From assembly GCF_002005445.1 (NCBI RefSeq), contig NZ_CP014692.1:2480001-2544000 (forward strand): a stretch of DNA of 64,000 nt, given 5' to 3'. A program made the position numbers and the translations under genes. Below the pieces are notes generated by a model, which made no database searches, was not told the DNA's origin, and was given only the letters and a program-made list of their open reading frames with translations. This DNA comes from Acetobacter aceti. Lineage in GTDB: Bacteria; Pseudomonadota; Alphaproteobacteria; Acetobacterales; Acetobacteraceae. Shown here in pieces: positions 13,527 through 26,896 of the stretch (its first letter is position 1; every line of letters begins with the position of its first letter).

Positions 13527-14951
13527 CTAGTCAATGAGCGCCTGCGCCGCAGCCTGTGCGGCCTCGCTGATCGGGCCCAGACCGATCAGGAACAGCACCG
13601 TGGCGAGCCCCATGGCGATGGACACGAACGAAACGGACGGAGCAGGACGATCAAACGCCGGAGCCGCCGGATCAAAATAGGCCACTTTCACGATACGCAG
13701 GTAATAGAACGCACCAACAATGGCCGACACCACGCCCACAGCGATCAGCGGATACAGGCCAGCATTCCAGGCTGCTGCAAACACCATGAACTTGCCGAAG
13801 AACCCGGCCAGCGGAGGCACGCCGATCATGCTGAACATGCAGATCGCCAGCACCAGAGCCAGCCCCGGATTGGTGCGACCCAGTCCGGCGATGTCGGAGA
13901 TTTCCGTAACCTCACGTCCCTGCCGACGCATGGCGGTGATCACACCGAACGTGCCCGCATTCATGATCAGATAGGTCGTGAGATAGACCAGCGTGCCGGT
14001 CGTTCCTGCCGGAGACGCGGCAGCAAGACCCATCATCGCGTAACCCATATGACCGATCGAGGAATAAGCCATCAGACGTTTGATGTTGCGCTGTGGAATG
14101 GCGGCGAAGGCGCCGAACAGCATGGACAGGGCCGCGATCACCTCGATCAGCAACTGCCAGCGCGGAGACATCGCACCGAACGGTCCCGCCATTACGCGCA
14201 GGATCAGGGCAAAAGCCGCAAACTTCGGGGCTCCGGCCATATAGGCCGTCACCGGCGTCGGCGCACCCTGATAGACATCCGGCGTCCACATGTGGAACGG
14301 CACGGCGGACAGCTTGAACGCCAGTCCGACGATGACGAACACCATGCCAATCACAAGACCAACGGGCAGGATGCCTGCTCCGTTGATCTCGGCCGCGATG
14401 GGCGCATACTCCATCGTGCCCGCGTAGCCGTAAACCAGCGATACACCATAAAGCAGCAGACCGGACGCCAGAGAGCCAAGGATGAAATATTTCAGCCCGG
14501 CTTCGGCCGATCCCAGACGATCACGCTCCAGGGCGCACAGCACGTAGATGGCGAGCGAAGACAGTTCCAATCCGACAAAAAGCGTCATCAGATTGGTCGA
14601 AGACGCCATGACCATCGCGCCTAGCGTCGAGAACAGGACGAGAATGGGCATCTCGAACGGCAGCTCGCGGTGCTCATTGGTGTAACCGACCGACAGCGCA
14701 ATCGCGACCACGCCACCGACAATGGCCAGCAGCTTGATGAAGCGGGCGAACGCATCGACCACGAACAGTCCGTCGTATCCCATGCCCTCCGGCGAGAGAG
14801 CCACCAGAAAACCGGTCACTACAAAGGCCGCGATGCTCAGCGTCGCCGACGGCAGGAAGGCATGACCCTTCTTCGTGAGCACACCCACCGAGAGGATAAG
14901 GAGACCGCTGACCGCCAGAACGATTTCCGGCAAGGCAAGTATCCAGTTCAT
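13527..14951 (-). CDS. nuoN: NADH-quinone oxidoreductase subunit N
   Basis: This 474-residue membrane subunit of complex I is an antiporter-like proton-channel protein with about 14 transmembrane helices. The sequence starts MNWILALPEIVLAVSGL and carries SAEAGLKYFILGSLASGLLLYG, AFKLSAVPFHMWTPDVYQGAPTPVTAY, PQRNIKRLMAYSSIGHMGY and MIGVPPLAGFFGKF, all typical of NuoN rather than NuoM. Its ATG overlaps the stop of a 17-codon ORF that occupies the place where nuoM is expected. GGGGAGA serves as its ribosome-binding site. birA follows. Confidence 0.95.
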   Translation of the reverse strand: MNWILALPEIVLAVSGLLILSVGVLTKKGHAFLPSATLSIAAFVVTGFLVALSPEGMGYDGLFVVDAFARFIKLLAIVGGVVAIALSVGYTNEHRELPFEMPILVLFSTLGAMVMASSTNLMTLFVGLELSSLAIYVLCALERDRLGSAEAGLKYFILGSLASGLLLYGVSLVYGYAGTMEYAPIAAEINGAGILPVGLVIGMVFVIVGLAFKLSAVPFHMWTPDVYQGAPTPVTAYMAGAPKFAAFALILRVMAGPFGAMSPRWQLLIEVIAALSMLFGAFAAIPQRNIKRLMAYSSIGHMGYAMMGLAAASPAGTTGTLVYLTTYLIMNAGTFGVITAMRRQGREVTEISDIAGLGRTNPGLALVLAICMFSMIGVPPLAGFFGKFMVFAAAWNAGLYPLIAVGVVSAIVGAFYYLRIVKVAYFDPAAPAFDRPAPSVSFVSIAMGLATVLFLIGLGPISEAAQAAAQALID

Positions 14952-15001
14952 CGTCCATTCTCCCCGGCGATGACGTGCAGGATTTCAGAAAAACCGCTCA
15001 T
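14948..15001 (-). pseudogene. nuoM: 17-codon ORF at the nuoM position, probable in-frame nuoM deletion scar
   Basis: Between nuoL and nuoN only 46 bases lie outside the two genes. They form an ORF, MSGFSEILHVIAGENGR, whose ATG (15001-14999) overlaps the nuoL stop as ATGA and whose TGA (14950-14948) overlaps the nuoN ATG in the same way. A normal nuoM is about 1.5 kb and stands exactly here. The most economical reading is that an internal in-frame deletion left roughly the first ten and last seven codons. I cannot show that these codons derive from nuoM without a relative for comparison. Confidence 0.55.
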
Positions 15002-16941
15002 TTCAAGAACACCACAGTGGTGACGAACACGACCAGCCCGACAAGCATGGTGAACGCATAGATGGCGATGGACCCGGTCTGCGTGCGCGTGGCGGTGACC
15101 GCCGTGCCGCGCGTGACTTCCGCAAGACCGACGGGGATCTTCTCGATCACCCCCTCATCCACACCATGCCACAGGGCGCGGGCAATGGCGCGATAGGGCT
15201 TCACAAAGATCACGTCATAGAGTTCGTCGAAATACCACTTGTTGAGCAGGAACTGATAAACCGGACGGAAGGATGTCGCGATCTGTCCGGGCAGTTCCGG
15301 CCTGGCGATATAGAGGACATAAGCCAGCGCGATGCCCAGCAGACCGACGATGCTCGGCATCAGACCGATAAGCGTCGGGACATCCTCAAGTGACGCCATG
15401 ACCGTATTGCCCGGCGCGTTGAAGATCGCACCCTGCCAGAACCCTTCCTGCCTGCCACCGATATAGAGTGGAGCCAGAGCCGCACCGGCAACGAGCGCGC
15501 CGATCGACAGGATCAGCACCGGCCCCAACATAACGGCCGGGCTTTCATGAGCGTGATCGTACGCATGCTGGTCACGCGGCTTGCCGTGGAACACGAGGAA
15601 GATCAGACGCCAGCTATACAGCGCCGTGATGAACGCCGTGACCGTGCCGAGTATCCAGCCGTAAGTGCCGATACCGGAATGCGAGACCCATGCCGCGTTC
15701 AGAATGGCGTCCTTCGACCAGTAACCTGCAAAGGGAAACACGCCCGCCAGCGCCAGACTGCCGATCCACATCATGGCGTAGGTCACCGGAATCTTCTTCC
15801 AGAGACCACCCATGCGGAACATGTCCTGCTCCTCGTGCATGGCGTGAATCACGCAGCCCGCGCCAAGGAACAGCATCGCCTTGAAGAAAGCGTGGGTCGT
15901 CAGATGGAAGACCGCCGCCTGATAGGCTCCGACACCGACGGCCATGAACATGTAGCCAAGCTGCGAGCAGGTGGAGTAGGCAATCGTGCGCTTGATGTCC
16001 GGCTGCACCAGACCAACCGTCGCCGCGAAGAAGCAGGTCGTGGCCCCGATCAGCACGATGAAAATCCGTGTGTCAGGCGCGAACTCGACCAGCGGCGACA
16101 TGCGCGCCATCAGGAAGACACCCGCCGTGACCATGGTGGCGGCGTGAATCAGCGCCGAAACCGGTGTCGGACCTTCCATCGCGTCCGGCAGCCATGTGTG
16201 CAGGAAGAGCTGCGCCGACTTGCCCATCGCACCGATGAACAGCAACGTCGCGATGATCTCCAGTACGGAATGAACGGAGCCGAACAGGTAGTAACCTGTC
16301 TGGACGTGGTCCGGGACCGTGGCGAAGATGTCGTCATACTGGACCGTGCCGAACACCACGAAGATCAGGCCGATCCCGACAAGGAAGAACAGGTCGGCGA
16401 TACGGTTGACCACGAAAGCCTTGATCGCGGCGGCGCAGGCGCTGGGCTTCTGATACCAGTAACCGATCAGCAGGTAACTCGCGAGACCGACGCCTTCCCA
16501 GCCGAAGAAGAGCTGGATCAGGTCGTTGGACGTGACCAGCATCAGCATGGCGAAGGTGAACAGCGAAAGATACGAGAAGAACCGGTAACGCGGCATCGTA
16601 TCGTGCGCCATGTAACCGATGCTGTAGATATGCACGAGCGTCGAGACGGTCAGCACCATCGCCACCATGGTGACGGACAGCGTGTCGAACCGCAGCGCCC
16701 AGTTCACGTGGAAGGAGCCGGCATCAACCCAGTGCGCCAGCAGGGCCACGCTGGGCATCCCACCGCCGACCATGCCGCCGAGCAGCGCGCCATAGCTGCA
16801 TACCGTGGCGATGAGCATGCACAGGACCGTCACGGCCTGCGCCGCGCCGTCACCGATGCGCCGTCCGAACAGGCCCGCGATAGCCGAGCCACACAGAGGA
16901 GCGAGTGTCGCGACCGAAAAGAGGATGAGTGCTGCCTGCAT
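14998..16941 (-). CDS. nuoL: NADH-quinone oxidoreductase subunit L
   Basis: This 647-residue protein is the distal antiporter-like subunit of complex I. It has the family core (LFFGWEGVGLASYLLIGYWYQKPSACAAAIKAFVVNR, LHTWLPDAMEGPTPVSALIHAATMVTAGVFLMARM, DIKRTIAYSTCSQLGYMF, HAFFKAMLFLGAGCVIHAM) and a C-terminal lateral-helix extension. It pumps protons in the membrane arm. It starts 5 bases after nuoK. In complete complexes NuoL contacts NuoM, which this operon lacks, so how the arm would assemble is an open question. Confidence 0.96.
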   Translation of the reverse strand: MQAALILFSVATLAPLCGSAIAGLFGRRIGDGAAQAVTVLCMLIATVCSYGALLGGMVGGGMPSVALLAHWVDAGSFHVNWALRFDTLSVTMVAMVLTVSTLVHIYSIGYMAHDTMPRYRFFSYLSLFTFAMLMLVTSNDLIQLFFGWEGVGLASYLLIGYWYQKPSACAAAIKAFVVNRIADLFFLVGIGLIFVVFGTVQYDDIFATVPDHVQTGYYLFGSVHSVLEIIATLLFIGAMGKSAQLFLHTWLPDAMEGPTPVSALIHAATMVTAGVFLMARMSPLVEFAPDTRIFIVLIGATTCFFAATVGLVQPDIKRTIAYSTCSQLGYMFMAVGVGAYQAAVFHLTTHAFFKAMLFLGAGCVIHAMHEEQDMFRMGGLWKKIPVTYAMMWIGSLALAGVFPFAGYWSKDAILNAAWVSHSGIGTYGWILGTVTAFITALYSWRLIFLVFHGKPRDQHAYDHAHESPAVMLGPVLILSIGALVAGAALAPLYIGGRQEGFWQGAIFNAPGNTVMASLEDVPTLIGLMPSIVGLLGIALAYVLYIARPELPGQIATSFRPVYQFLLNKWYFDELYDVIFVKPYRAIARALWHGVDEGVIEKIPVGLAEVTRGTAVTATRTQTGSIAIYAFTMLVGLVVFVTTVVFLK

Positions 16942-16946
16942 GATGC

Positions 16947-17270
16947 TCAGCCCTTCATCGTCGCAACGTCCTCGACCTGAATCGAGCCACGGTTGCGGAA
17001 ATAGACAGTGAGGATGGCGAGGCCAATAGCAGCTTCAGCGGCCGCTATGGTCAGCACGAACAGCGTCAGAACCTGTCCGGAGAGATCACCGAGCACGGAG
17101 GAGAACGCCACCAGATTGAGGTTGGCTGCCAGCAGGATCAGCTCCATCGACATCATGATGATGATGATGTTCTTCCGGTTGAGGAAGATGCCGAACACAC
17201 CAAGCACCAGCAGCGCCGCGCTGACCGTCAGGTAGGGACCGAGCCCGATCTGGGCGATTGCCGTGTTCAT
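16947..17270 (-). CDS. nuoK: NADH-quinone oxidoreductase subunit K
   Basis: This 107-residue protein has three membrane helices and the conserved NuoK core ([31 protein letters not shown]) containing the buried glutamate of the proton path. The family length is about 100 residues. Its start overlaps the nuoJ stop by 4 bases, as typical of translationally coupled nuo genes. Confidence 0.95.
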
Positions 17271-17992
17271 TCTGCGTCTCCTTCACCCGGCTCGCGCTTT
17301 TCTGCGGCAGGGACTCCGTAAGAGCCCGGAACGGCTGTCACGTAATAGGAATCATTGGGGCGGATGAAGCCGCCGTTGGCATCCGTGCCCTGCCCCAGCG
17401 GCAGGGTCATCATCTCGAGCGTGTCGGCGCGCTTGCGTTCATGCTGGCGGGAGATGATCTGGCGACGGCCCATCGGACGGTCACGCAGTGTCAGGGTGAT
17501 CGCGCCGATCATGGCGACGAGCAGCACGAGACCGCAAAGCTGGAACAGCAGGATATAGTGCGTGTAGATCAGGTTGCCGAGCGCGCCGGTGTTGGTCGCA
17601 GCGCCTCCGGGCTGGCCGAGGCCGCCCGTAATTGGCGCAGGCATGACCGGGGACATGCCCCAGTGCAGGCCCGCCATCACCAGTTCGACGAACAGGATGC
17701 AGCCGACAACGCCGCCAATGGGCGCGTAACGCTGCAGGCCTTCCCGCATCTTGGTGAAGTCGATGTCGAGCATCATCACCACAAACAGGAACAGCACGGC
17801 GACCGCGCCAACATAGACGATCACCAGGATCATCGCGAGGAACTCGGCCCCGGCGACGAGAAACAGACCTGCCGCGTTGAAGAACGCAAGGATCAGGAAC
17901 AGGACCGAATGGACCGGATTGCGTGCGCTGATCACCATGGCGGCTGAGCCGACCAGAATGGCGGCGAACACATAAAAGACGAGCTGGACCAT
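17267..17992 (-). CDS. nuoJ: NADH-quinone oxidoreductase subunit J
   Basis: This 241-residue protein has five predicted membrane helices in the N-terminal two thirds, with [20 protein letters not shown] and [28 protein letters not shown] typical of NuoJ. The C-terminal 70 residues are hydrophilic and somewhat longer than in E. coli. It forms part of the E-channel region of complex I. The stop overlaps nuoK, and 60 bases separate it from nuoI upstream. Confidence 0.95.
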
Positions 17993-18052: not shown

Positions 18053-18541
18053 TCAGCGATAAGGCGCATCAAGCTCGAGCCTCCGTGCCAGCACGCTCTC
18101 CCAGCGGTCGCCGTTCGAGAGCAGCTTTTCCTTGTTGTACATGAGCTCCTCACGGGTCTCCGTGGCGAACTCGTAGTTCGGACCCTCGACAATGGCGTCC
18201 ACCGGGCAGGCTTCCTCGCACAGGCCGCAATAGATGCACTTCGTCATGTCAATGTCGTAGCGCGTGGTGCGGCGGGAGCCGTCGTCACGCGGCTCGGCCT
18301 CGATGACGATCGCCTCCGCCGGGCAGGTCGCCTCGCACAGCTTGCAGGCGATGCAGCGTTCCTCGCCGTTCGGATAGCGGCGCAGCGCATGCTCGCCACG
18401 GAAACGCGGAGAAAGCGGTCCCTTTTCATAGGGGTAGTTGATGGTGACTTTCGGCTTGAACATCGTTTTGAATGTCGAGGCCATGCCCGAGATGATCTCG
18501 GTCAGCAGAAAAGCCTTCAGCGCACGATCCATGCCAGCCAT
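18053..18541 (-). CDS. nuoI: NADH-quinone oxidoreductase subunit I
   Basis: This 162-residue ferredoxin-like subunit has two [4Fe-4S] motifs, [16 protein letters not shown] and [16 protein letters not shown] (clusters N6a and N6b). They carry electrons towards NuoB and quinone. The start ATG overlaps the nuoH stop by one base (TGATG). The length equals that of the alphaproteobacterial family. Confidence 0.96.
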
Positions 18542-19563
18542 CAGCTTACTCCCTGCGGCAGAAGACCCGTTGCAAGCAGGAACCCGGCGGTTGCGATCAT
18601 CCAGAGCAGCGAGAATGGCAGGAATACTTTCCAGCCAAGACGCATGAGCTGGTCATACCGGAAACGGGGGAACGTTGCGCGGGTCCAGATAAAGACGAAA
18701 AGACAGAACAGAATCTTGGCGATCAGCCAGAGCGGTCCCGGAATCCATGTCAGCGGCGCGATACCGAGCGGCGGCAGCCAGCCACCAAGGAACAGGATGC
18801 TGACCATGCCGGACATGAGGATCATGTTGGCATATTCGCCAAGGAAGAAGAGACCGAAGGAGAGCGAGGAATATTCGACGAAGAAGCCCGCCACCAGCTC
18901 ACTCTCGCCTTCGGGAAGATCGAATGGCGCGCGGTTCGTCTCGGCCAGCGCCGAGATGAAGAACAGGATGAAAATCGGGAACATCGGCACGCAGAACCAG
19001 ACATGCCGCTGCGCCAGCACGATATCGTTGAGGTTCAGGCTCCCCACCGCCAGCAGCACGGACACAATCACCAGACCGATGGAGACCTCGTAGGACACCA
19101 TCTGCGCGGCGGACCGAAGGCTGCCGAGAAAGGCGTATTTGGAGTTCGACGCCCAGCCCGCGATAAGCATGCCGTAGACACCGAGCGAGGAAATCGCCAG
19201 CAGGTAGAGGATGCCCACATTGATGTTGGCGACCGCCAGCCCGTTGCCCGTCGGAATGACCGCCCACGCCGTCATGGCCAGCGAGAACGTCAGGAACGGA
19301 GCGAACAGGAAGAGGAAACGATTGGCCCCGGTGGGGATGATCGTTTCCTTGGTGATCATCTTGATCGCGTCGGCAAAAGCCTGAAGCAGACCGAAGATGC
19401 CATTCACGTTCGGGCCACGACGCAACTGCATCGCCGCCATCACCTTGCGCTCCATGAGCGTCAGGTAAGCCACACCGATCAGCAGCGGCACGAGAACCGC
19501 GAGCGTCTCCAGCACCATGAGAATGAACTGCCCGGCGAGCGTATGGAAGAAAAAGTCAGCCAC
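18541..19563 (-). CDS. nuoH: NADH-quinone oxidoreductase subunit H
   Basis: This 340-residue membrane subunit links the quinone site to the membrane arm. Diagnostic stretches are [50 protein letters not shown] and [28 protein letters not shown]. It lies between nuoG (4-base gap) and nuoI (1-base overlap). Confidence 0.96.
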
Positions 19564-19567
19564 GTTC

Positions 19568-21604
19568 CTACTCCGCCGCTACAGCCACGCCCGGCGCGTA
19601 GACTTCCGCGCACTCGACCATGGTCGGACTGGACCGGCTGATCGGATTTGTCAGGTAATAACTCCGGGAGGACGCCAGCAGCGGCTTCGCCTCGATAGCT
19701 TCCGCACCCGGCTCGTCCGCCACTTCGCCTGCCGCAGAGGACACGCCAAGCTGAAGCCGCTCACGCAGCGTCTCGATCGTGTCGTACGGCAGTTTCGCGC
19801 CCAGCACTTCCGAGGCTGCGCGGATGATCTTCCAGTCCTCCTTCGCCTCTCCCGGCGGGAACACCGCCTGGAAGCTGCGCTGGATGCGACCTTCCGTGTT
19901 GACCCATGTGCCCGATTTTTCGGTATAGGCCGAACCCGGCAGGATCACGTCGGCACGGGCCGCGCCCGCATCGCCATGATGCCCCTGATAGATCACGAAG
20001 GTTTCAGGGCTGATGGCGTTCACCGAGAACTCGTCCGCGCCCAGCAGCCACAGCACATCCACACCGCTGCTCAGCATCCCGCGCAGGCTGCGACCACCCT
20101 TGCGTGGCACAAAGCCAAGGTCGAGCGCCGCAACCCGCGACGCCGCGGTGTGCAGGATGTTCAGGCCGTTCCAGTCATCTGTCAGCGCACCGACCGATTC
20201 CGCCAGAGCGCGACAGGCTTTCAGAATGGCTGCGGAATCCTCACGGGTCAGCGCCTCCTGACCGACAATGATCACCGGTTTCCTGGCGGCCTTCAGCTTT
20301 TCAACAAATTCAATATTGCCGCTCAGCAGACCGTTCACCGAGACCGGATTACTGCCCAGATCCTCATACGCCCATGTCGGATCGGAGGTCAGCGTACCGA
20401 TAACACCGATAGGCAGACCGCCGCGCCCCAGTGACAGATAGCGCTTGCGGATACGGGCGTTCAGAACCGGTGCATCCAGACGCGGATTGGCCCCGACCAC
20501 AAGGATCGCATCCGCCTCATCAATGCCGACGATGCCGCTGGCGAAAGTGTACCGCGCACGATCCGACAGATCGTATTTCGCGCCATCCTGACGGCAGTCG
20601 AGATTGAGCGAACCCAGCGACCACATCAGATCCCGCAGCGCCATGATGCTCTCGGCGTCGCACAGATCACCGACAATCGCGCCGATCCGGCTGCCCTGCA
20701 CACCCTCAAGCCGTTTGGCGATGGCGACGAAAGCGTCCTGCCAGCTCGCCGGATGCAGCTTGCCATGCACCCGCACCCACGGACGGTCGAGGCGACGGCG
20801 CTTCAGGCCGTCGACAGAGAAACGGCCTTTGTCGGAAAGCCATTCCTCGTTCACCTCGTCATTCACGCGGGGAACGATACGCTTCACCTCGCCGCCACGT
20901 GCCTGAATCTGGATATTGGTGCCGACCGCATCCATCACGTCGATGGCGTCGGTCTTCCGCAATTCCCACGGACGGGCCTGAAAGGCGGACGGTTTGGAAG
21001 TCAGCGCGCCAACCGGGCAGATGTCGATCAGATTGCCGGACAGTTCCGAGGTCAGCGCCTTCTCGACATAGGTGGTGATCTCAAGATTCTCGCCACGCGA
21101 GATGCCACCCAGTTCCGGCGTGCCCGCCACTTCCGCGCTGAATCGGACACAGCGCGTGCACTGGATGCAGCGCGTCATCACCGTCTTTACCAGCGGGCCG
21201 AGATTCTTGTCGGTAACGGCGCGCTTTTCCTCATGATAACGGGAAATGCCGCTGCCGTACCCATACGCCTGATCCTGAAGGTCACACTCGCCGCCCTGAT
21301 CGCAGATCGGGCAGTCGAGCGGATGGTTGATGAGCAGGAACTCCATCACCGCCCGCCGCGCCTTGCGGACCGTTTCCGTGTCCGTGAAGATCTTCATGCC
21401 TTCATTGACAGGGAAACCGCACGAAGCGACCGGTTTCGGAGCCCGCTCAACCTCCACGAGACACATGCGGCAGTTGCCGGCCACGGACAGGCGTTCATGG
21501 TAGCAGAAGCGTGGAATTTCCTTGCCCGCCGCCTCGCACGCCTGAAGCGCGGAAGAACCGGGAGCGACATCGACAGGCGTGCCGTCAACAATGACTCTGA
21601 CCAT
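19568..21604 (-). CDS. nuoG: NADH-quinone oxidoreductase subunit G
   Basis: This 678-residue iron-sulfur subunit has an N-terminal [2Fe-2S] domain ([20 protein letters not shown]), the His/Cys [4Fe-4S] site [19 protein letters not shown], and [16 protein letters not shown]...CPVGALTSK. These are followed by a molybdopterin-oxidoreductase-like domain without a cofactor. It extends the electron wire from NuoF and NuoE to NuoI. The length matches the alphaproteobacterial form, which is shorter than E. coli NuoG. Confidence 0.96.
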
Positions 21605-21609
21605 CCGCC

Positions 21610-22944
21610 TTACTCCGCCGCAATCGCTACGACAGGCGTTCCCGCAGGCACCTGCACCTGCTGCGAACCGCCATGCCGCCGCTTGTAGTCATGGATACGC
21701 TCTTCCATGAGCGGGCGGAAATGCCGGATCAGACCCTGAATGGGCCATGCCGCCGCATCGCCAAGCGCACAGATCGTATGTCCTTCAACCTGCCGTGTGA
21801 CCTGCTCCAGCATGTCGATTTCCTCGATCTCGGCTCGGCCTTCGACCATGCGGTTCATGACGCGCATCATCCAGCCGGTGCCTTCACGGCACGGCGTGCA
21901 CTGGCCACAGCTCTCATGTTTGAAGAACTGCGAGAAGCGGGCAATCGCCTTGATGATATCGGTGGATTTATCCATCACGATCATGCAGCCCGTTCCGAGC
22001 CCTGACTGCACCGCCCGCAGGCTGTCATAGTCCATCAGCACCGTCTCGCAGACATCCTTCGGCAGCAGCGGCACCGAGCAGCCGCCCGGAATGACCGCCA
22101 GCAGATTGTCCCATCCGCCACGCACACCGCCGCCATGCTTCTCGATGATTTCCTTCAGCGGCACACCGAGTTCTTCCTCGAACACGCAGGGCGTATTCAC
22201 ATGACCGGAAATGGCCATCAGCTTGGTGCCCGCATTGTTCGGGCGGCCGAGTGCGGAGAACCATGCCGCACCACGACGCAGGATCGTGGACGCCGAAGCG
22301 ATCGACTCCACATTGTTTACCGTCGTCGGGCAGCCATAAAGCCCCGCGCCCGCCGGGAAAGGCGGCTTCATGCGCGGCTGGCCCTTCTTGCCTTCGAGGC
22401 TTTCCAGCAGGGCCGTTTCCTCGCCGCAGATATAAGCGCCCGCGCCGCGATGCAGATAGAAGTCGAAATCCCAGCCTGTTCCCGCAGCGTTTTTGCCAAG
22501 CAACCCGGCTTCATACGCTTCATCGATGGCGATCTGGAGATGACGCGCTTCGTTATAGAACTCGCCGCGCACATAGATGTAGGACGCGTGCGCCCCCATC
22601 GCGAAAGAGGCGATCAGCGCGCTCTCGATCAGCTTGTGCGGCTCATGGCGCAGGATCTCACGATCCTTGCAGGTACCCGGCTCGGACTCGTCGCCGTTGA
22701 TGACGAGGTAGCGTGGCGCTGGTCCGTCGCCTTTCGGCATGAAGGACCACTTCACACCCGTCGGGAAGCCCGCACCACCACGCCCGCGCAGGGCGGACGC
22801 CTTCATCTCGTTGACGATCCAGTCGCGGCCCTTGTCGGTGATCGCCTTCGTATCGTTCCAGTCACCACGGGCGCGGGCGCCAGCCAGCCGCCAGTCATTC
22901 TGGCCATACAGGTTGGTGTAGATCCGGTCCTTATCGCTCAGCAT
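21610..22944 (-). CDS. nuoF: NADH-quinone oxidoreductase subunit F
   Basis: This 444-residue subunit binds NADH and FMN and carries cluster N3. Motifs are [51 protein letters not shown] (NADH/FMN binding) and [15 protein letters not shown] followed by a later cysteine ([14 protein letters not shown]). It starts 15 bases after nuoE. Confidence 0.96.
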
Positions 22945-22959
22945 CGTCGCAGATCTCCC

Positions 22960-23589
22960 TCAACCCTGACCGGAACCGGTCTCTTCGAGCAGCACCCGAC
23001 GGCCACCCTCCGGCTCCGCGCCATGACGCCCGTTGGTCGGCCCCGACTCCGGATACTCGCCGCGTTTCAGCGCCTCGATCAGCGCTTCCGTACGAGGGGC
23101 GTCGAGATCCTCGAAAAAATCGTTATCCACCTGAAGGATCGGCGCATTGGAGCACGCTCCAAGGCACTCGACCTCACTCAGCGTAAACAGACCATCTTCG
23201 CTGGTCTCGCCAATATTATGGATGCCGGTCGCCTTCTTGCAGGCGGACAGCACATCGTCCGACCCGCGCAGCCAGCAGGATGTCGTCGTGCAGACCTGAA
23301 GGTGATATTTCCCGATCGGCCTGGTGTTGAACATGAAATAGAAGGTCGCAACCTCGTAAATACGCATCGGCGCGACTTCCAGCTTTTCAGCCACGGCATC
23401 CATCGCCACGGTCGGCACCCAGGCGCTGCCGGTCTGCCGTTTCATCTGGTTCTGCACGACATAGAGCAGAGGAAGAGCACCGCTCGCTTTCCGCTCCGGC
23501 GGATACTTGGCGAGGATCGTTGCGATCTCGCCTTCGCTGATCTCATCAAATTCGAAGTGATCAGGCTGCACGTTTGTGACAGTGCTCAT
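22960..23589 (-). CDS. nuoE: NADH-quinone oxidoreductase subunit E
   Basis: This 209-residue thioredoxin-like [2Fe-2S] subunit has the ligand pairs [10 protein letters not shown] and [10 protein letters not shown] (cluster N1a), preceded by [20 protein letters not shown]. The C-terminus carries a roughly 40-residue hydrophilic extension. The start overlaps the nuoD stop by 4 bases. Confidence 0.95.
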
Positions 23590-24878
23590 CGGTCCACCTC
23601 ACCAAAGACGAGATCCAGCGAGCCGATGATCGCCACAGCGTCAGCCAGCATACCCCGTCGAGAGAGTTCATCAATCGCCTGCAGATGCGCGAAACCGGTC
23701 GGTCTGATCTTGCAGCGATACGGACGATTGCTGCCGTCAGCCACGAGATAGACACCGAATTCACCCTTTGGCGTTTCGACTGCCGTGTAGGTCGCGCCCG
23801 GCGGCACATGATAACTCTCGGTAAACAGCTTGAAGTGATGGATCAGGGCTTCCATCGACCGCTTCATCTCGGCACGTGGCGGAGGCGAGAACTTGGGGTC
23901 CTGCACCTTGATCGCGCCGGGTCTGATCTGCGCCAGACTCTGCTTGATGATCTTCACGCTCTCGCGCATTTCGGCCACGCGAACGAGATAGCGATCATAA
24001 CAATCGCCATGCCGTGCCACGGGAATTTCGAAATCGACCTTGTCGTAATTGTCATACGGCTGGGAGCGACGCAGATCCCACGGCACGCCCGAGCCACGCA
24101 GACACGGACCACTCCAGCCCCACGCCAATGCCTGCTCGCTGGTGAACACACCAATACCGACCGTACGCTGCTTCCAGATACGGTTTTCTGTCAGCAGCCC
24201 TTCGAGATCATCGATCCAGTTGGGAAATTCTTCAGCCCACGCAGCGATTTTCTCTTCCATACCAGCAGGCATGTCGCGTGCGACACCACCGGGACGGAAA
24301 TAGTTGGCATGGAAACGCGCTCCGGAAACCGCCTCGTGAAACTCAAGCAGTTTTTCGCGCTCTTCATAGCCCCAGAGCGCAGGCGTCACCGCACCGCAGT
24401 CGAGCCCCATCGCCGTCAGGTTGAGGATGTGGTTCAGGATGCGGGTAATTTCCGCGAAGATCACGCGGATCCACTTGGCGCGATCCGGCGCTTCAATGCC
24501 AAGCAGTTTCTCGGTCGCCAGCGCGAAAGCGTGCTCCTCGCACATCGGAGAGGCGTAATCGAGACGATCGAAATACGGCAGCGCCTTGGGATAGGTCTTG
24601 TATTCGATCAGCTTTTCCGTGCCGCGATGCAGCAGCCCGATATGCGGCACGGCACGCGCCACAACCTCGCCTTCCATCTCCAGCACAAGACGCAGAACGC
24701 CGTGGGCCGATGGATGCTGCGGGCCGAAATTGAGCGCGTGACTGTCGATTTCGACTGTCCGGCGCTCAACTTCATGCTTGGCCACCTGTTCAGGCAGCAA
24801 AGTCTCGGGCAGCGGACCTTCAACAAGGCTGTCACGCAGACCGAGGAGATTTTCGTCCTGTTTCAGGGCCTCTGTCAT
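23586..24878 (-). CDS. nuoD: NADH-quinone oxidoreductase subunit D
   Basis: This 430-residue 49-kDa-type subunit forms the quinone site with NuoB. It shows [68 protein letters not shown] and the C-terminal [11 protein letters not shown]. It is a separate gene from nuoC, as usual in alphaproteobacteria. The N-terminal 40 residues are an extension. Confidence 0.96.
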
Positions 24879-24891
24879 GCTCCGGCTCCTG

Positions 24892-25548
24892 TCACTGTAT
24901 CTTTTTCATGATCTGACGCAGTTCATGCGCCCGTTCGTCACCCGGCAGCGTCAGAACGCCTTCCCAGGGAGACACAAAATCGAAATCGCGGAAATCCTGT
25001 GTCAGCGTGACCGGTTCGCGCACAATCTGGCGACGCTCCGGATCGTAGCGAACTTCTGTATAACCGGTCAGCGGGAAATCCTTGCGGAGCGGATGCCCCT
25101 CGAAGCCGTAATCGCTGAGAATACGACGGAGATCCGGCTGGCCCGAGAACAACACGCCATACATGTCGTAACACTCGCGCTCCCACCATGTGGCGCAGGG
25201 CCATATCTGGTGCACCGACGCGACCGGTGTCAGTTCGTCTGTCGTCACGATCACCCGGACACGCTGGTTCAGGCTTACGGACAGAAGGTTGTAGACCACA
25301 TCGAACCGTTCGGCGCGTTGAGGGAAATCAACGCCACACAGGTCCATGAGCTGTTCGAAACGGAACCGTCGATCATCACGCAGAAGCATCATCAGCGGGG
25401 TCAGGCGATCACGATCCGCCCGCACCACAAGTTCTCCGCCTTCTATAGCGGCGGAAGATATGCCCGGTAACGACGTTGAAAGCGTGAAGGCCAGGGATGA
25501 GAGACCGGAATTGCCTCTGGTGACGGGTGCAGTGGATTGATCAGCCAC
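24892..25548 (-). CDS. nuoC: NADH-quinone oxidoreductase subunit C
   Basis: This 218-residue 30-kDa-type subunit of the hydrophilic arm carries the family signature [43 protein letters not shown]. Its start overlaps the end of nuoB by 8 bases. Confidence 0.95.
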
Positions 25549-26113
25549 GGAGAATCGTCCCTGTCCGGCGGATTTTCTTTTGCAGCAGCATGATACCGTA
25601 AATCAGCGCCTCGGCCGTCGGGGGACAGCCCGGCACATAGACATCGACCGGCACGACACGGTCACAGCCACGCACAACCGAATAGGAATAATGGTAATAG
25701 CCGCCGCCATTGGCGCAGGAGCCCATCGAAATCACCCAGCGCGGCTCGGCCATCTGGTCGTAAACACGCCGCAGGGCCGGGGCCATCTTGTTGGTGAGCG
25801 TTCCAGCGACGATCATCACGTCTGACTGTCGTGGCGAGCCACGAGGAATGATACCCATCCGATCGAGATCGTAACGCGGCATGTAGGCGTGGATCATTTC
25901 CACAGCACAGCAGGCCAGACCAAACGTCATTGGCCAGAGGCTACCCGTCCTGCCCCAGTTCACGAGTTTGTCGAGACTGGCGACCACGAAGCCTTTCTCG
26001 CTGATCTCACCCGTGATGCCACGGACGATAGCGTCCTGCTCCGGTCCAGCGGGAACCGCATCCCGGTTCCAGACGATATTGGTGTCCGAGCCCACAGCGC
26101 TGTCACCGTTCAT
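25541..26113 (-). CDS. nuoB: NADH-quinone oxidoreductase subunit B
   Basis: This 190-residue subunit carries cluster N2, with [13 protein letters not shown] (tandem cysteines) and [36 protein letters not shown]. The ATG at 26113 is preferred, with GGAG 8 bases upstream. A longer frame to 26227 would add an unlike 38-residue tail and overlap nuoA. Confidence 0.95.
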
Positions 26114-26165
26114 TGCGCGTTCTCCACCTTCATTACCGTTACAGCCACGTCCGCCAGCATCAAGA

Positions 26166-26531
26166 TCAATCCCAGTCCAGCGCGCCCTTGCGCCACTCAT
26201 AAAGGAATCCGATCCCCAGCACGCCAAGGAATCCCATCATCGACAGGAAGCCATAAAGACCGATCCGCGACAGGCTGACCGCCCACGGAAACAGGAAGGC
26301 CACTTCCAGATCGAAGATGATGAACAGGATCGAAACGAGATAGAAACGGACATCAAAACGACGGCGCGCATCGTCGAACGCTTCGAAACCGCACTCATAG
26401 GCTGTCAGTTTTTCCGCATAAGGTTTCTGGTGTCCACACACGAGCGAAGCGCCCAGCATGGCGCCTGCAATCACCACGGCGAGAATGCCGAAAATGAGAA
26501 CCGGCAGATAATCGTTGATCACCGACGGCAT
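26166..26531 (-). CDS. nuoA: NADH-quinone oxidoreductase subunit A
   Basis: This 121-residue protein has three membrane helices and the NuoA motifs [44 protein letters not shown]. The first gene of the complex I operon starts at the ATG at 26531 ([11 protein letters not shown]) behind a strong GGAGGG. The longer frame to 26603 lacks support. The operon promoter should lie in the gap before tRNA-Val. Confidence 0.95.
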
Positions 26532-26896
26532 GACGCCCTCCGTAATGATTTTCCGTTTCCACATCCGCGCCTTATGGCTCGAACCGATGGATAATGCGGC
26601 CAAACTATGCCCGGAATGCCCCCATGGCCACCCTCATACCGGCACGACTCAGAAACTTTCGCGTGAGGAGTTCAGCCTATTGAATTCAATTCACAGAGCT
26701 GAACGTCACCCTGCAACCGTCCCATCTGAAGTGCTTTTTCCGTCAACACATACCACCACCTTAGATCTATATACATAAAAATATAGACTTAGCTATAAAC
26801 ATGCGATCAGGCGCCTGCTCATGGGGTTACGGTCAAAAGGAAGACCGTGCACAGACCCACGGGGCTGATGTCTGTCAGATTGAATTTTCAGGAAAA
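26532..26896 (-). promoter_or_regulatory. nuo operon leader with nested inverted repeat
   Basis: This 365-base stretch has no convincing gene. It contains a perfect 12-base palindrome ATTGAATTCAAT (26679-26690). This is framed by GTTCAGC (26670-26676) and GCTGAAC (26698-26704), so the whole 35 bases form a nested inverted repeat about 140 bases upstream of nuoA. Further out, an AT-rich patch has CTATAT...ATATAG arms (about 26767-26787). A regulator site or leader hairpin is plausible; no clear -35/-10 pair was found. Confidence 0.4.

Follow-up and report, generated by a model that had tools for sequence, protein, structure and literature searches.

The closest described counterpart of the locus analysed here comes from Acetobacter pasteurianus SKU1108, for which the accessible passage of PMC5158111 lists an operon nuoA-nuoN (APT_01737-01725) and a nuoM gene under the tag APT_00690. 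A separate nuoM is already in print for A. pasteurianus, as this listing and as protein co-variation, in the parts of the respective papers that were accessible. The available passages of the Asaia genome paper distinguish two types of nuo operons in acetic acid bacteria and use a tree based on nuoHIJKLN (PMC4596401), and the Acetobacteraceae phylogeny paper tabulates nuo13 and nuo14 in separate columns, NuoM going unmentioned in the accessible main text (PMC10715153). In the complex I mining paper, Nuo13 stands for the fused CD form and the main text, as far as accessible, does not mention Acetobacter (PMC12361115). The G. diazotrophicus paper, in the section available, reports nuoCD together with nuoL, nuoM and nuoN (PMC9368920), and nuo is not mentioned in PMC4007555. 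Among the literature matches listed, as far as their main texts were accessible, no discussion of a relocated nuoM was found.

In the window, i.e. the whole stretch of 64,000 nucleotides of Acetobacter aceti contig NZ_CP014692.1 that was analysed, a nuo operon occupies positions 26603-13527 on the minus strand. Its genes nuoB to nuoL and nuoN were identified via family models; nuoA was named by sequence recognition from its position and translation, there being no family-model listing at the threshold of 1e-40. The features are as follows, all on the minus strand:

26166..26603, minus strand, nuoA (position and translation; start uncertain)
25541..26227, minus strand, nuoB (NF005012 266 bits, match from residue 72; the true start probably lies further in)
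24892..25548, minus strand, nuoC (NF004733 281 bits)
23586..24878, minus strand, nuoD (NF004739 594 bits)
22960..23589, minus strand, nuoE (TIGR01958 163 bits, cut-off 142; NF005725 208 bits, slightly below its cut-off of 220)
21610..22944, minus strand, nuoF (NF010120 813 bits)
19568..21604, minus strand, nuoG (TIGR01973 736 bits)
18541..19563, minus strand, nuoH (NF004745 504 bits)
18053..18541, minus strand, nuoI (NF004539 309 bits)
17267..17992, minus strand, nuoJ (NF005164 266 bits)
16947..17270, minus strand, nuoK (NF004323 157 bits)
14998-16941, minus strand, nuoL (647 aa; TIGR01974 799 bits)
14948..15001, minus strand, 17-codon ORF MSGFSEILHVIAGENGR between nuoL and nuoN, with the putative nuoN ribosome-binding site GGGGAG inside
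13527..14951, minus strand, nuoN (474 aa; NF004440 582 bits, cut-off 519)

The family models over the operon genes and the sequence itself agree with the original prediction that this operon lacks nuoM and that only 46 bases separate the nuoL stop from the nuoN ATG. The further claim that complex I should be disabled was not supported. A search with the antiporter domain PF00361 covered the whole genome (3.725 Mb, single contig) and returned three places only, namely nuoL, nuoN and C1:3645966-3646820. The third one belongs to a 503-codon ORF that begins with GTG (C1:3645570-3647081; L004:9571-11082), an intact and full-length nuoM on the same contig, 1.15 Mb from the nuoL-nuoN junction; the caveat that a NuoM-like protein might be encoded elsewhere was thus well placed. 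The encoded protein scores as NuoM (TIGR01972 538.6 bits versus a cut-off of 263.8; on the narrower model NF004499 572.6 bits, slightly below the cut-off of 585). Its closest solved relative is a NuoM as well (8qby_M, 444 bits), and among named relatives it comes closest to the NuoMs of Acetobacter sp. UBA5411 and A. sicerae, with 98% identity. Because the genome holds no fourth PF00361 place, this whole-genome search found no second nuo operon. A plasmid copy of nuoM was ruled out as well, since all 388 matching plasmid records show less than 60% identity and no near copy was found among them.

We consider it highly probable that this genome encodes a complete 14-subunit complex I whose NuoM comes from the unlinked gene, and that nuoM left the operon once, in the ancestor that Acetobacter shares with six or more further genera of the Acetobacteraceae. 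The gene would then have come to lie after mutL, and in the A. aceti-type group, which includes this genome, it would now stand after mlaA-mlaC. NuoM would be provided in trans and take its place in the membrane arm between NuoL and NuoN, and the proton pump would probably be complete rather than broken.

The arrangement is shared by the genus relatives examined. PF00361 places were tabulated for 49 genus genomes (our own included), and the nuoL-nuoN junction could be read for 45 of the 48 relatives, G017, G030 and G042 being left out. In all 45 junctions nuoN directly follows nuoL, with spacers of 37 to 148 bases as measured to the ATG chosen; this shared adjacency in 45 other genomes rules out an assembly error at the junction. 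Six other Acetobacteraceae genera were picked among 50 family genomes because their coordinates looked split, and nuoL and nuoN proved adjacent in all six, with spacers of 8-27 bases. The order nuoL-nuoM-nuoN was found in 13 family loci picked as intact, and also in L045, a named metagenome-assembled genome. Since such intact family operons carry nuoM between nuoL and nuoN, the gene was probably lost from this slot long ago.

A few genomes deviate in other respects. Three of the 50 family genomes (G070, G088, G094) are without any PF00361 match and therefore probably lack complex I. In G017, nuoM is present (L121), nuoL and nuoN were not found and nuoD gave merely a 27% match. The genes flanking the operon, lon and birA, were not found there either, in one search run without a positive control, so we read the orphan nuoM as the result of an assembly gap, not of a loss of complex I, a candidate we rejected on the same ground. 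Six to seven PF00361 places occur in 12 of the 49 genus genomes; the one of these that was read (L123, G001:C1:3169800-3176200) carries a further set of nuoL-nuoM-nuoN in addition to its split complex I.

The surroundings of the unlinked gene were read in 41 Acetobacter loci, i.e. our own and 40 titled Acetobacter, the names mutL, lspA, DUF3035 and parE-type gyrase B protein being those given by Pfam. Neither nuoL nor nuoN was found beside nuoM in any of the 41 (flanks up to 6 kb, shorter at contig ends). In 27 loci nuoM follows mutL, in 13 it follows mlaA-mlaC and one locus is cut off. The mutL-nuoM order also exists in five other genera, and in G090 and the uncultured L043 nuoM lies a few kilobases from parE, with mutL absent from that stretch. 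The position beside mlaC characterizes the A. aceti-type group; in this genome both mlaA and mlaC were recognised by Pfam upstream of nuoM, and mutL stands elsewhere, followed by a transposase (Pfam) and flagellar genes. As neither lspA nor parE nor nuoM was recognised by eye in the 14-kb mutL stretch of this genome, the gene seems to have reached its place beside mlaC in another rearrangement that came later. Transposase pieces occur at L144:7115-7911 after mutL (Pfam DDE) and at L004:19620-19961, about 8 kb after nuoM (by eye); they could bear on this later rearrangement.

In a NuoM tree of 50 rows, the 17 unlinked NuoMs form one clade (100/100), which falls within the operon NuoMs of the family, a long way from the NuoMs of second operons. 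The NuoL+NuoN tree likewise joins the 7 split genomes in one clade (100/100), with Acetobacter nested among the six other split genera. The long-branched G087 comes out as the sister of the unlinked clade when NuoM is used (100/98), a placement that the NuoL+NuoN tree does not share, and it was left out of a class-wide NuoM tree with 27 class-wide rows and 11 unlinked rows. There, the unlinked clade attaches beside L124, L130, L132 and L134, which are also near the split clade on the NuoL+NuoN tree; five family rows are placed outside that group at 99/97 and four more at 80/62 only.

These trees bear on the question whether the native gene moved or was lost and replaced, with the nuoM of another lineage taking the mutL locus. 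Such a xenologous replacement is in line with the branch lengths estimated under LG+F+G4 for 25 genomes on the fixed NuoL+NuoN topology: of the three proteins, NuoM alone has a long stem at the base of the split clade (0.84, compared with 0.19 for NuoL and 0.11 for NuoN), i.e. 5.7 times the mean of the others. Furthermore, a topology in which the unlinked NuoMs stand apart from those of the family's operons was not rejected by the AU test (p 0.288), which leaves room for an unsampled close lineage as donor. At 45-54% identity, the unlinked NuoMs are also no closer to the NuoMs of family operons than to those of other families in the class, for which the matches listed from 240 class genomes reach up to 52%. 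However, the best trees put the unlinked clade inside the family's operon NuoMs, its nearest rows are also its neighbours by NuoL and NuoN, and no donor closer than 52% appeared among these listed matches. We regard replacement by a relative's gene as rather unlikely, and a move of the native nuoM appears the likelier course from the sequences compared.

The long stem also invites a functional reading. Branch sums outside the split clade amount to 8.72 for NuoL, 6.06 for NuoM and 9.41 for NuoN (ratio 0.67), and inside the clade to 3.21, 2.99 and 3.11 (ratio 0.95), which, in plain ratios, puts the stem excess of NuoM at about 8-fold relative to the branches outside and 6-fold relative to those inside. 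Of 239 positions that are conserved to at least 90% in 41 other NuoMs, 27 carry a different, fixed residue in at least 80% of the 17 unlinked ones. Ten of these lie within four residues of six residues (E144, K223, K254, H311, H337 and E396), which we take to be the channel residues and to correspond to E144, K234, K265, H322, H348 and E407 of E. coli, against 4.2 expected (hypergeometric P 0.003); at distances of 1, 2, 3, 5 and 8 residues the P values are 0.07, 0.04, 0.06, 0.003 and 0.004, uncorrected for the six distances tried. Taken together, the 27 changes show no bias towards the residues of NuoN, and gene conversion from nuoN was set aside on this inspection. Because the excess on the stem is 6-8-fold and the fixed sites tend to flank channel residues, it is conceivable, though we think it doubtful, that the exit of nuoM went along with a re-tuned middle proton channel, with altered NuoM gating and a separately controlled NuoM supply in the acetous lineage.

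An unlinked gene with 27 fixed changes at otherwise conserved sites might also be expected if this NuoM served another machine, an antiporter or a hydrogenase, and complex I worked with two antiporter subunits. Several observations make this very improbable. The protein scores as NuoM far above the Mrp models, and all six channel residues are kept in 17 of 17 unlinked NuoMs, including the glutamate E396 at the last site, where NuoL and NuoN have lysine. In the accessible proteomics tables for A. pasteurianus CICC 20001, NuoM (HN.1610) changed 0.62-, 0.33-, 2.16- and 1.78-fold in four acid comparisons and the listed operon proteins HN.3342-3354 shifted in the same directions, except that NuoN was unchanged (0.93) in the first comparison; these table passages refer to another species than that of our genome and do not have NuoL among the proteins (PMC10742644). 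The gap between the accessions in this listing suggests that HN.1610 is the unlinked gene. The unlinked NuoM of this genome presumably assembles into complex I. For the unlinked nuoM, pairwise dN/dS is 0.024-0.142 in five pairs, two of which have dS above 1; these values point to purifying selection, and the gene is maintained and looks functional.

About 90 bases before the nuoM start we found the element TGCTCGGCGGAACGTGA, with CTGG following some ten bases on (L014:5906-5935 and equivalents). Allowing at most two mismatches, its 13-base core occurs in 24 of 27 loci of the mutL type, 5 of 13 of the mlaC type and the one cut off, which makes 30 of 41 Acetobacter loci; at that threshold, this genome and its nearest relatives lack it before nuoM. 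That it occurs at the mutL as well as the mlaC position suggests that the element travelled with nuoM. The exact string TCGGCGGAACGTGANC exists in one copy each in 15 of the 49 genus genomes (reversed control 0), and in 12 of them, the ones with a tabulated nuoM place, it lies just upstream of nuoM. A promoter shared by nuoA and nuoM was rejected, as a search of the window that tolerated two mismatches did not locate the element ahead of nuoA. A sigma-70 scan gave no site around nuoM; in the operon stretch it returned one site, at 24878-24849, and none upstream of nuoA.

There remains the junction itself. As the original prediction had stated, the 17-codon ORF starts in an ATGA over the nuoL stop and ends in an ATGA over the nuoN start, and the likely ribosome-binding stretch of nuoN falls within its last codons. 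An ATG-started ORF ending at most 8 bases from the nuoN start exists in 45 of 46 Acetobacter junctions (our own included, the exception being L105), where dinucleotide-shuffled spacers lead to an expectation of 46% per junction or 21.2 of 46, an excess that is suggestive only because the junctions are related and not independent. These ORFs encode 39 distinct peptides of 13-47 codons. No excess of third positions was found among their variable sites, which are few and give low power, and a conserved small protein gene was rejected, given that the peptide is not conserved and carries no codon-position signal. In none of the six other split genera does such an ORF occur, their spacers of 8-27 bases leaving little room. 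The longest spacer, 148 bases with an open 47-codon frame, was seen in L080, L092 and L095. In L088 (G027), nuoL reads as two pieces, its open frame being 525 aa: the frame that holds the main match is interrupted by a stop some 440 bases ahead of nuoN, which reflects a frameshift or an assembly slip.

The original prediction had taken the 17 codons for what an in-frame deletion of nuoM leaves behind, with complex I disabled or altered. The ATGA overlaps on both sides and the family operons with nuoM in place are consistent with a recent deletion of this kind in this strain, the ORF being the fused ends, but it is practically refuted by the intact gene elsewhere in the genome and by the common junction: the close relatives, which had been expected to have nuoM between nuoL and nuoN, show the same adjacency in all 45 cases. 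Nor are the first and last codons of nuoM retained, since the best score of the peptide against the ends of 23 NuoMs was 23.0 at a shuffle mean of 22.3, with 203 of 500 shuffles scoring as high. As Acetobacter is nested among split genera that lack the ORF, a scar kept in Acetobacter alone would require several losses. What is supported of the deletion reading is that nuoM is missing from its usual slot; a recent date, the scar and a disabled complex I are not. Under the preferred reading of an ancient relocation, the 46 bases would be an intergenic stretch carrying the nuoN ribosome-binding site, and the 17-codon ORF, if translated, at most a leader that couples translation of nuoL and nuoN.

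The analysis corrects a tempting false call of a crippled complex I, and it places the gene for a core proton channel outside the nuo operon in every examined relative of an industrial genus. The split offers a natural test of how a large membrane complex would cope with one subunit coming from another locus. Likewise, the burst of changes in NuoM only at the move, while its partners remained slow, may show, as an experiment of nature, which residues in the second shell of the NuoM channel can be changed.

With regard to known systems, the locus shares its subunits and their order with the 14-gene nuo operon that is standard in Acetobacteraceae as well as in other alphaproteobacteria, except for nuoM, which in the standard operon stands between nuoL and nuoN (the 13 family loci and L045). 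The second nuo operon that some acetic acid bacteria have (PMC4596401; nuo13 column of PMC10715153; accessible parts) also encodes a complex I and also exists in the genus. In contrast to our locus, such operons include a nuoM themselves, whose product stands far apart from the unlinked NuoM on the tree, and they are absent from this genome. The arrangement most like the present one is that of A. pasteurianus, with 13 operon locus tags and one distant nuoM; there, the accessible passage gives the loci alone, while the origin of the arrangement, a clade-wide survey and the change in rate are added here (PMC5158111).
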